A stretch of DNA of 64,000 bases from Streptomyces sp. MMBL 11-1 (GTDB lineage: Bacteria; Actinomycetota; Actinomycetes; Streptomycetales; Streptomycetaceae): positions 6,885,001-6,949,000 of the forward strand of contig NZ_CP117709.1 of NCBI RefSeq assembly GCF_028622875.1, read 5' to 3'. Position numbers and translations under genes: made by a program. Of this stretch, positions 36,049 through 48,203 are shown piece after piece; the stretch's first letter is position 1, and each line of letters starts with the position of its first letter. The notes under the pieces were generated by a model. That model was not told where the DNA came from and did no database searches. It saw only the letters and a list, made by a program, of their open reading frames with translations.

Positions 36049-36423
36049 GTGATTGTTCGTCGACTTGACGAAGCGCTGTCGGTCGACTGGGGCAACGGCG
36101 TGAGTCGCCGTCTGCTGCTCGAGTCCGACGGCATGGGCTTCACGGTGGCCGACACCATCGTGAACGCTGGTACCAGTTCACGTCTTCAGTACCTTGACCA
36201 TCTTGAAGCGGTCTACTGTATTTCCGGAACCGGCGAGATCACGGAGCAGAGCGGCGTGGTCCATCCCATCGGGCCCGGAACCATGTATGCGCTGAACGAA
36301 CACGATGCGCATTCGATCACCGCGCATGCGGAGCAGGACCTGCATCTCGTGTCCGTGTTCTTTCCCGCCTTGCGCGGGCCGGAGCGGCACGACGTCCGGT
36401 CCACTGCCTATTCGAGCTACTGA
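36049..36423 (+). CDS. ectoine synthase (EctC)-like cupin
   Basis: A 124-residue single-domain cupin. It aligns over its whole length with ectoine synthase: H-L-E-A-V-Y-C-I, the T-M-Y-A-L-N-E-H-D-A-H segment and the closing V-F-F-P-A-L. The three EctC metal ligands are kept with the same spacing: E53, Y80 (27 on) and H88 (8 on). GTG 36049 was chosen for the GGGAGG just upstream. EctC closes N-acetyl-diaminobutyrate into a cyclic amidine by losing water. No ectA, ectB or ectD is nearby and the gene leads an NRPS/HypEF operon, so the substrate is probably a different amino acid or peptide. Ring closure of an amine onto a nitrile, cyanamide, amide or urea group is the sort of chemistry to expect; this is inference. 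Confidence 0.88.
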   Translation: MIVRRLDEALSVDWGNGVSRRLLLESDGMGFTVADTIVNAGTSSRLQYLDHLEAVYCISGTGEITEQSGVVHPIGPGTMYALNEHDAHSITAHAEQDLHLVSVFFPALRGPERHDVRSTAYSSY

Positions 36424-36464
36424 CCGGCACGGGCCGTTCTCGACACGAAGGAGAAATCTGATCC

Positions 36465-46800: not shown

Positions 46801-48203
46801 TCGAGACCGGCGTGACACGGGGGATGTCCGTCGGCGTCTGCCTCGAGCGCGGTCCCGACCTGGCCGTGGCGGCCCTCGCGGTCCTCAAGACCGGCGCCGC
46901 CTGCGTCCTCCTCGATCCGACGCTCCCCCCTGAGGACATCGCCCGGGTGCTCGACGTGACGGCCGCCCGGCATCTCGTCGACCGGGCCGGTGACGCGACG
47001 GGCGTACGATCCGGGACGACCGTGAGCCTGGACCAGGACGCCGCGGCCATCGACGCGCGCTCCGCCGCGAACCTCGACATCGGCGGCCACTTCGGCGATC
47101 CGGCGTGTGCGACGGTCACCGCGGTGGCGGCGGGCGGGAAGCCGGAGGTCGTTGTGGCCTCGCACCTGGCCGTGGTGGGCACATGTGCCGCGCTCGGCCA
47201 CCACGCGTTCGGTCCGGACGACGTGTACCTGCCGTGTTCGCCCCTGTCGGAGCAGACGTTCGTCACGGAGCTGTTCGGCGCGCTGCTGCATGGCGCGCGG
47301 TGCGTGCTGGACCCCGGACAGACCCCCGGTCCCGCAGCCGTCGAACTCCTCGTGGCGAAGCACGGGGTCACGGTCCTGCGGCTGCCGGAGAGCCTGTTCG
47401 CCCGGCTGCTCGACGAGCGTCCGGCGGCGCTGGGCGGAGTGCGGTACGTCCTGACCGGCGCACAGGACACGTGGGCCGCTCGTCTCGCCGAGGCACTGCG
47501 GGACTTCCCGGACCTGCGTGTGCTCAGCGGTTACGGCCCCGCGGAGAACACCGGCCTCACCACCTGCCATGAGGCGGTGGCCGAGGCACCGGAGGGGTCG
47601 CCCGTACCGATCGGCGTGCCGGTGACGAACCAGCGCGCCTACGTGCTCGGCCCCGGCCTGGAACTCGTCCCGGTCGGAGCCGTCGGCGACCTGTACGTGG
47701 CCGGAGTGGGGCTGGCCCTGGGCTATGCGCATCGACCCGCCTTGACGGCCGAACGGTTCATCGCGAATCCGTACGGCACGCCCGGCGAGCGCATGTACCG
47801 CGCGGGGCGGCTCGCGCGCCGAAGGGACGACGGCGTCCTGGAACTCGTCGGTCCGGTGGGCGGGCGGAAAGGGGCACCGGACCCCGGGGCGCTGCCCGAC
47901 GGGGGAGCCCCCGGTGCGTCCGCCGAGGCGGAGGACAAGCCGCGAACGGAGCGCGAGGAACTGCTGTGCGCGCTGTTCGAGGAGGTCCTCGAGGCCGTGG
48001 GTGTCGGCGTCCACGACAACTTCTTCGACCTGGGCGGCCATTCGCTGCTCGCGTCCCGCCTGGTGGTGCGGATCCGGAGCCACCTGGGCATCAAGGCGTC
48101 CGTCGGCGATGTCATGGCGGCCCCGACGGTGGCGGGTCTGGCCGAACGACTGGAGCAGGCTCCCAAGGTCCGGCCGCGCCGCAGGAGTACGACACCGAGC
48201 TGA
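43875..48203 (+). CDS. NRPS: A remnant-PCP-C-A remnant-PCP
   Basis: A 1442-residue synthetase whose two A domains are both broken. The first (~38-358) keeps the start and the L-Y-L-A-G/Y-R-T-G-E part but has lost the P-loop, pocket and whole C-terminal subdomain; a run of Asp-Ala repeats sits in its middle. A good PCP follows (L-G-G-H-S, ~409-413), then an intact C domain (H-H-I-V-S-D-G, ~597). The second A (~935-1328) has no Y-T-S-G-S-T-G loop (A-A-G-G-K-P-E instead) and also stops before the Q-V-K-I-R-G region. A second good PCP ends the protein (L-G-G-H-S, ~1385-1389). Both carriers need loading from outside; the A domain of the overlapping upstream gene is the obvious source. AGGAG precedes ATG 43875. 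Confidence 0.95.
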   Translation: MIPPSYGRQVTRPERPTGRAETLTEPEGARNHGPSLGVLFERQADARPNAVAVDSGGERMTYAALDARANRLAHHLRRQGAVRGTVVGIGDGPGLDAVVARLAVVKAGAAYVTVDTGGDTAQPLVPPRFPVSVGVVLGRGADPARLRGRLPAGVRLIALDDDAALISAEPDTRPSSCVSGLDVACLVPRRARDGQALWELVPHRAVAHRLSGPSSPGPDADADADADADRSWSGTPQPEGRGVDRWWAALLRGGTCTVADDTDRAAEPPHEDLWPVHRPAGVGGAFVLDSRLRLLPPGVVGDLYLAGEGLGYGYGDRPSLSAERFVAHPLGASGQRMYRTGERARWRYDGSVELVPRDAEPRPELLLPASVGGAPAAPAAPRTSRQEILCGIFADMLGRETVGVHDDFFDLGGHSILAARIAGRVRTLFGVELDLSAVFRGPTVAQLDARISRSEQVRAVLRPVEPRPALLPASPGQQGLWMVDQIQGPNASYNIPTALRLQGALDAGALEAAVNDLVVRHEALRTTFRNHDGAPHQHVVPEPEARVHLERSSCRHAELPDFLAALAGRPCDLGDGPLIRAFLVSLDPDEHVLLLLIHHIVSDGASLDPLLGDLSTAYAARREGAAPRWDPLPVQYVDYALWQRELLGSEEDPDSVLSRQLDFWRGTLAGLPTELDLPAARRRPETPSFRGELVPLTVGADLHRRLVALARRQGATMLMVLQTGLAALLSRLGAGTDVPVGTVVSGRTDEALDQLIGFFTNTLVLRTDLSGNPTITELLDRVRATDLAAFAHQNAPFERLVELLNPERAAARHPLFQTMLVLQGRGQPQPDWPDVQVEPFEVGNETAKFDLSLWLREDYVDDVPAGLNGSFEFSVDLFDRTTVEDLATRFVRVLEAMATAPDTRLAQVDLLSAEERQAVLALSGASADVPATGRIHELFEARARLHPDAIATAHGDRQLRYGELNARANRLGRHLVETGVTRGMSVGVCLERGPDLAVAALAVLKTGAACVLLDPTLPPEDIARVLDVTAARHLVDRAGDATGVRSGTTVSLDQDAAAIDARSAANLDIGGHFGDPACATVTAVAAGGKPEVVVASHLAVVGTCAALGHHAFGPDDVYLPCSPLSEQTFVTELFGALLHGARCVLDPGQTPGPAAVELLVAKHGVTVLRLPESLFARLLDERPAALGGVRYVLTGAQDTWAARLAEALRDFPDLRVLSGYGPAENTGLTTCHEAVAEAPEGSPVPIGVPVTNQRAYVLGPGLELVPVGAVGDLYVAGVGLALGYAHRPALTAERFIANPYGTPGERMYRAGRLARRRDDGVLELVGPVGGRKGAPDPGALPDGGAPGASAEAEDKPRTEREELLCALFEEVLEAVGVGVHDNFFDLGGHSLLASRLVVRIRSHLGIKASVGDVMAAPTVAGLAERLEQAPKVRPRRRSTTPS
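44529..44558 (+). repeat. hexanucleotide tandem repeat inside an A-domain remnant
   Basis: Five perfect GACGCC units in frame, giving (Asp-Ala)5. The run lies where the P-loop and substrate pocket of the A domain should be, so it may mark the scar of the deletion. Confidence 0.9.

Follow-up and report, generated by a model that had tools for sequence, protein, structure and literature searches.

In the maturation of [NiFe]-hydrogenase, HypF and HypE together convert carbamoyl phosphate into a cyano group carried on the last cysteine of HypE, as described in PMC12130793 and PMC4506123. In antibiotic pathways, YrdC-like and Kae1-like domains likewise act on carbamoyl phosphate, as part of the O-carbamoyltransferases TobZ and GdmN; in HypF, however, the domain order is reversed, acylphosphatase and zinc-finger domains are added, and the group is passed on to HypE, as outlined in PMC6022934. 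We analyzed a window of 64,000 nucleotides from Streptomyces sp. MMBL 11-1 (contig NZ_CP117709.1, positions 6,885,001 to 6,949,000 of the forward strand; positions below count from its first letter), in which HypE and HypF genes stand in one run with genes for an isochorismatase-family cysteine hydrolase (hereafter Isoch), a cupin resembling ectoine synthase (EctC) and non-ribosomal peptide synthetases (NRPSs). Judging from sequence comparisons, the part from 37222 to 41171 probably encodes a hydrogenase-independent cyano-group module consisting of Isoch, HypE and HypF. HypE and HypF of this locus share with the hydrogenase-associated proteins the equivalog models, the domain order and a terminal cysteine on a P-R-x-C tail. 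They differ in that the tail of HypE reads PRLC instead of PRIC, Isoch is the partner, HypE falls on a branch of its own, and HypC, HypD and a hydrogenase were not found.

The genes of the run are as follows, where T, C and A denote thiolation, condensation and adenylation domains.

35790..36011, plus strand, MbtH-like protein, first gene of the run (PF03621, 87.2 bits)
36049..36423, plus strand, EctC-like cupin of the orphan ectoine-synthase type (PF06339, 119.9 bits; NF009806, 133.9 bits against a cut-off of 128)
36465..37145, plus strand, PF04199 cyclase-family metal hydrolase, kynurenine-formamidase-like (92.4 bits; solved relatives exist)
37222..37806, plus strand, Isoch (PF00857, 111.8 bits)
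37822..38835, plus strand, HypE with C-terminal PRLC (TIGR02124, 393.8 bits against a cut-off of 251.6)
38838..41171, plus strand, HypF carbamoyltransferase (TIGR00143, 746.7 bits against a cut-off of 466.1)
41188..43878, plus strand, NRPS with T, a truncated (partial) condensation domain and A, from domain matches
43875..48203, plus strand, NRPS with an A-like remnant, T, C, A and T, from domain matches (TSGSTG motif absent from A by eye)

The preliminary description of this stretch, made from its letters, had placed the genes between 36049 and 48203 in one run with gaps of 2-76 bases or overlaps. We found all of them present, intact, closely spaced and on one strand, and the measured gaps (36423-36465, 37145-37222, 37806-37822, 38835-38838 and 41171-41188) agree with that spacing; the MbtH gene lies upstream of that range. 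The ATG of HypF at 38838 is located 2 bases past the HypE stop. For the last NRPS gene listed, an ATG at 43875 gives a 4-base overlap with the preceding NRPS gene, compared with a mechanical open reading frame start at 43233.

We searched 394 genomes of the host family for HypE and obtained matches in 263 genomes. The best 14 matches, the window included, showed 53-100% identity, compared with at most 46% for the others among the matches listed, and Isoch and HypF adjoin HypE in all 13 non-window members of this group. Isoch was absent from the 20-kb regions around four canonical control HypEs. The 14 Isoch proteins were aligned and used as the query against one genome per species, which yielded 74 loci; these belong to Actinomycetota, Pseudomonadota, Myxococcota, Bacillota, Chloroflexota and other groups. 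Isoch, HypE and HypF were all present in 67 of the 74 loci found through Isoch, with Isoch and HypE within 300 bases of each other in 63/67 complete loci, and HypD was detected in none of the 74 (DNA of up to ~10 kb on each side). The cysteine hydrolase had been listed in the preliminary description, but its status as a constant partner had gone unrecognized. Because the equivalog models match over their full length and the triplet recurs in so many loci, a chance origin is not at issue. As a variant of a known enzyme pair, Isoch-HypE-HypF is real, widespread and sharply delimited, and it is not linked to hydrogenase.

HypE and HypF of the window each align, almost from end to end, with solved chains of their own kind. 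HypF comprises an acylphosphatase domain, two HypF zinc fingers, a YrdC domain and a Kae1-like domain, with the motifs VGFRP and HHHAH in its translation, so that the four domain types previously ascribed to it are all present; the terminal P-R-L-C ascribed to HypE is likewise found in the translation. Across the module loci, HHHAH was kept in 67/67, and the acylphosphatase motif, for which 66 loci were considered, was VGFRP in 26, VGYRP in 39 and not found in one.

A C-terminal PRIC motif has been described as common to all HypE (PMC12130793). Every one of the 69 distinct module HypEs examined (overlapping sets of 66/66 and 13/13) ended in PRLC, and the reactive terminal cysteine is therefore retained. 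The tail was PRIC in 28/28 HypD-linked control HypEs and in all 16 canonical-group HypEs from the family search. When all HypEs of 11 HypD-carrying genomes were collected, the 12 located beside HypD ended in PRIC, whereas the 10 other full-length proteins ended in PRLC. Within 1.5-kb flanks, HypD accompanied 28/28 PRIC but 0/23 PRLC HypEs, and Isoch accompanied 23/23 PRLC but 0/28 PRIC HypEs. In a maximum-likelihood tree of 97 HypEs, built after removal of the last six residues, a single branch with a support of 100/100 separated the 28 PRIC from the 69 PRLC proteins; given its long branches and arbitrary root, the tree shows separation and not the direction of descent. In the docking proposed for the canonical system (PMC12130793), the PRIC tail enters HypD and its Arg comes close to HypD Asp98; the PRLC tail in copies unlinked to HypD fits a changed partner.

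The genome of the host has a size of 8.5 Mb in 5 contigs and a completeness of 100%. It contained one HypF copy in a genome-wide search, and neither HypD nor HypC gave any match across it. No match to the [NiFe]-hydrogenase large subunit exceeded the cut-off; the only one obtained reached 20.7 bits against 25.8 and looks by eye like the complex I subunit NuoD. These searches work, because E. coli and other control genomes matched in the same runs. HypA and HypB were not among the annotated genes of the window, and the host genome was not searched for either. The earlier statement that no hydrogenase or other hyp gene is present therefore extends to the whole genome for HypC, HypD and the large subunit, and the hydrogenase with hypABCD elsewhere in the genome that would have spoken against the preliminary description was not found as regards these three. 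On the same searches, together with that for HypF, we rejected the maturation of an unseen hydrogenase. Given that the searches detected no HypC, HypD or large subunit and that HypE belongs to the PRLC clade not linked to HypD, a role of HypE and HypF in serving a [NiFe]-hydrogenase is unlikely; their uncoupling from hydrogenase, the central idea of the preliminary description, is well supported by both lines of evidence.

A broader possibility is that HypE and HypF act in the maturation of a metal enzyme, be it a hydrogenase or another, or that they assemble a metal-cyanide cofactor or metallophore. In favor of it, the pair is known only from the assembly of Fe(CN)2CO (PMC12130793). However, the genome-wide negatives argue against it, as does the fact that canonical copies coexisting with the module are separate and HypD-linked, and we regard this possibility as highly improbable.

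For the cyano-group module, the following route is proposed. HypF would convert carbamoyl phosphate to carbamoyl-AMP and place the carbamoyl group on the last cysteine of HypE, and HypE would dehydrate it in an ATP-dependent step to a protein-bound (iso)thiocyanate; the module copies presumably still make cyano in this manner. Isoch, replacing HypC-HypD and iron, would accept the group, most likely on Cys126, and pass it on to a nucleophile in the NRPS pathway. The product could be a nitrile, a cyanamide or, via ring closure by the EctC-like protein on a diamino acid such as diaminobutyrate (Dab), a cyclic guanidine. Isoch is the natural candidate for the acceptor in the place of HypC-HypD, because this cysteine enzyme is nearly always encoded with HypE, which is known as a thiocyanate carrier.

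Conserved residues were counted in Isoch from the window and from 73 loci, which made 74 sequences after the L124 fragment had been dropped. Cys126 was kept in all 74 and a second cysteine, C167, in 73. C126 and C167 could form a putative dithiol that releases or relays cyanide. D10 and K93 were kept in 67/74, and the window protein has the complete D10, K93 and C126 triad. In seven Nocardia loci (L078, L083, L086, L087, L088, L091 and L096), G and R replace D and K, C126 is retained, and HypE and HypF are adjacent. This loss favors a cysteine-only role in these species. The two best-matching solved chains of Isoch were an N-carbamoylsarcosine amidase related protein and an isochorismatase hydrolase. 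Isoch shares the isochorismatase-like family and the D-K-C triad with N-carbamoylsarcosine amidase, biuret hydrolase and RutB, and differs from such hydrolases in its linkage to HypE and HypF, its C167 and the Nocardia proteins without D and K.

Several observations weigh against this interpretation. Isochorismatase-family proteins are normally amide hydrolases and the triad is retained in most Isochs, so that Isoch may simply be a hydrolase of the usual kind with a role elsewhere; the substitutions in Nocardia could also mean that Isoch activity was lost. The full triplet was missing from seven of the 74 loci. Three of these (L061, L067 and L114) are truncated where the locus or contig ends, but L110 (a HypE fragment), L113, L115 and L124 (a short contig with an Isoch fragment) are incomplete for reasons that such ends do not explain, and module genes have broken frames in L062 and L119. 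In two samples of module genomes, HypD was present elsewhere in the genome in 9/14 and 11/20, although its genome-wide absence from the other 5/14 and 9/20 counts in favor of the proposal, and the module of Paraburkholderia phymatum lies ~4 kb from a [NiFe]-hydrogenase operon. In addition, neighboring genes differ between classes of module loci, so that no single product class can be deduced.

The retained triad bears on a further explanation, in which HypE is a carbamoyl carrier, the product bears a urea or carbamate group, and Isoch serves to trim or proofread intermediates that have been carbamoylated. The enzymes annotated among the solved relatives of Isoch, namely N-carbamoylsarcosine amidase, biuret hydrolase and RutB, fit such a role, and HypF by itself makes the carbamoyl adduct, as outlined in PMC6022934. 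However, a dedicated HypE with an ATP-dependent fold would then be superfluous, as the O-carbamoyltransferases treated in that source do without one. Moreover, D55, K130, D128, R224 and E272 are among the residues, catalytic or not, that are invariant in 18/18 HypEs, module and canonical. We consider transfer of carbamoyl alone unlikely.

To return to the proposed cyano-group module, its neighborhoods were sorted into classes by neighboring genes. NRPS similarity was found in 16/74 loci. One class combines an ATP-grasp ligase, a pyridoxal-phosphate (PLP) decarboxylase and a major facilitator superfamily (MFS) protein; another, which is also present on a Streptomyces clavuligerus plasmid, combines arginase-family, haem-oxygenase-like, ATP-grasp and MFS proteins. 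A third contains a serine-hydroxymethyltransferase-like protein, a gamma-glutamyl-hydrolase-like protein and a 2-oxoglutarate oxygenase, and a fourth a sugar epimerase with carbamoyl-phosphate synthetase. Similarity to the large chain of the latter enzyme was found near 6/74 loci, in agreement with carbamoyl phosphate as the donor, and the Pfam domains of this enzyme are present in L041. A class-III aminotransferase was present in 20/74 loci, and all four of those tried (three from the 74 loci and one from P. phymatum) exceeded the cut-off of the diaminobutyrate-transaminase model TIGR00709. These transaminases in one class and the EctC-like protein in the window point to Dab-like diamino acids.

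Some loci deserve separate mention. The module is located on plasmids of rhizobial species (L126, P. phymatum pBPHY02; L127, Rhizobium leguminosarum pRLG203), and on pBPHY02 it adjoins ectB. In L120, L116, L118 and L128 it forms a compact operon, in which a divergent LysR gene is followed by Isoch-HypE-HypF-HAD phosphatase, with an MFS gene in several. This operon, perhaps the simplest form of the module, was found in enteric bacteria, among them Citrobacter freundii, where it lies on a plasmid; at megablast sensitivity, the enteric operon (L120) was not detected in complete E. coli genomes. Actinosynnema sp. ALI-1.44 (G394) carries two module copies of different classes (L051 and L079) and no HypD.

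The function of orphan EctC proteins has been called unclear in PMC6344544 and PMC5924519. By comparison with the iron-binding and substrate-contact positions of ectoine synthase given in PMC6344544, a multiple alignment indicated that the window protein keeps the iron ligands E57, Y84 and H92 and the contacts W21, S23, R25, T40, Y52 and F106; W21 occurs in the window and in all 120 homologues among the matches listed. Like ectoine synthase, the protein exceeds the PF06339 and NF009806 cut-offs. It differs in having A at N38, where 101/120 homologues among the matches listed have T, and in lacking ectA and ectB alongside, its neighbors being MbtH, the cyclase, Isoch, HypE and HypF. The N38 to A change was rejected as a diagnostic feature, because the canonical EctC of the host itself, encoded with an ectB-like gene at 1.40 Mb, has H there.

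Homologues of the EctC-like protein (E 1e-36 or better) were present in 39/392 genomes of the genus, that of the window included, and none was found near the module in the 74 loci (DNA of up to ~10 kb on each side). EctC was accordingly rejected as a general part of the module; the constant partner is Isoch. Homologues of the EctC-like protein (80%), the cyclase (81%) and HypE (85%) each lie on a 10795-base contig, and those of the EctC-like protein and the cyclase (97% each) on a 6826-base contig. The shared contig sizes are circumstantial evidence that the combination in the window is probably conserved in sister strains. In two annotated regions, on plasmids of Streptomyces xanthii and S. 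globosus (L165 and L166, 12001-12375), the operon of the EctC-like gene lacks HypE and instead encodes an AMP-binding protein, an acyl carrier-type protein (carrier protein), an acyl-CoA dehydrogenase and a transglutaminase-like protein. This would be a further use of EctC, as yet unexplored.

The EctC-like protein is a candidate ring-closing enzyme. In the most specific version of the proposal, the cyano group would pass via Isoch to a diamino acid at its side-chain amine, such as the gamma-amine of Dab. In the resulting N-cyano amino acid, the EctC-like protein would join the alpha-amine to the nitrile carbon, giving 2-amino-tetrahydropyrimidine-4-carboxylate for use by the NRPS. The module would then offer bacteria in general an enzymatic path that starts from carbamoyl phosphate and leads to cyanamides, nitriles and guanidines. 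The proposed compound is an ectoine analogue with NH2 for CH3, that is, a cyclic guanidine made without arginine. This version, prompted by the Dab-like diamino acids to which the gene context points, is a guess and rather doubtful, although diaminobutyrate transaminases at some loci keep the diamino-acid and cyclic-guanidine idea alive.

The cyano group may instead be placed on a carbon center, the EctC-like protein and the cyclase acting elsewhere in the pathway. Cyanosporaside is an enediyne-derived compound that bears a nitrile and a C-methyl sugar. L051 of Actinosynnema, whose HypE (71%), Isoch (77%) and HypF (66%) resemble those of the window and which groups with it at 100/97, is the nearest named outside relative for HypE. 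It adjoins genes for a C-methyltransferase, an aldo/keto reductase and an epimerase, with an ASPIC/UnbV protein and a polyketide synthase (second-best NCBIfam match PfaA, below cut-off) nearby, neighbors that we take to mark enediyne clusters. Lane et al. reportedly proposed nitrile genes for cyanosporaside in 2013, and the new use of HypE and HypF claimed in the preliminary description may thus be partly anticipated. If that paper names HypE and HypF, nitriles made by them would not be new, whereas the general module, Isoch, the PRLC tail and the combination with EctC would nevertheless go beyond it. In general terms, PMC11611611 mentions that candidate genes for the cyanosporaside nitrile had been proposed. 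Among open-licence publications, judged by title and the start of the abstract, we found none on HypE/HypF or cyanamide in natural-product biosynthesis. The cyanosporaside genes possibly represent the same module, a likeness drawn from the gene context of L051. In the window, however, the setting is an NRPS cluster that includes EctC-like and cyclase genes, and other module loci repeatedly have diamino-acid genes nearby. A carbon nitrile in place of a cyanamide or guanidine is possible, but we consider it the less probable outcome.

Further genes of the window lie on either side of the run.

27267-31825, upstream of the run, DpgA, DpgB and DpgC (29146-30504), each above its NCBIfam cut-off, and a PLP aminotransferase
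31927-35568, opposite strand to the run, methionine-synthase gene, separating the Dpg genes from the run
48368..49186, plus strand, thioesterase (PF00975, 171.6 bits)
49362..50690, plus strand, MFS exporter, from a domain match
50910..56633, plus strand, NRPS with C, A, T, C, T and a thioesterase domain, from domain matches
56656..60501, plus strand, NRPS with C, A and three carrier domains, from domain matches

Given the Dpg (3,5-dihydroxyphenylglycine) genes, a peptide of the region may contain Dpg; the methionine-synthase gene intervenes on the opposite strand, so that the Dpg genes may or may not share a pathway with the run. NRPS genes are present on either side of the run. The NRPS architecture at 41188-48203 is unusual, and a single A domain may serve several carriers. 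An ATP-grasp ligase at 5854-7107 matched the dapdiamide synthase DdaF model with 136.9 bits, under the cut-off of 840.

If the proposal is true, it would caution that not every HypE/HypF pair is a set of hydrogenase genes, and it would raise the question of which protein takes the place of HypC-HypD as the cyano acceptor. One orphan EctC protein would then acquire a testable role. PRLC HypE together with Isoch would provide a sequence handle for nitrile, cyanamide and guanidine natural products, usable in Actinomycetota, Pseudomonadota, Myxococcota, Bacillota and Chloroflexota. Bacteria would then possess a portable, ATP-driven means of cyano delivery that operates without the HypC-HypD iron scaffold.

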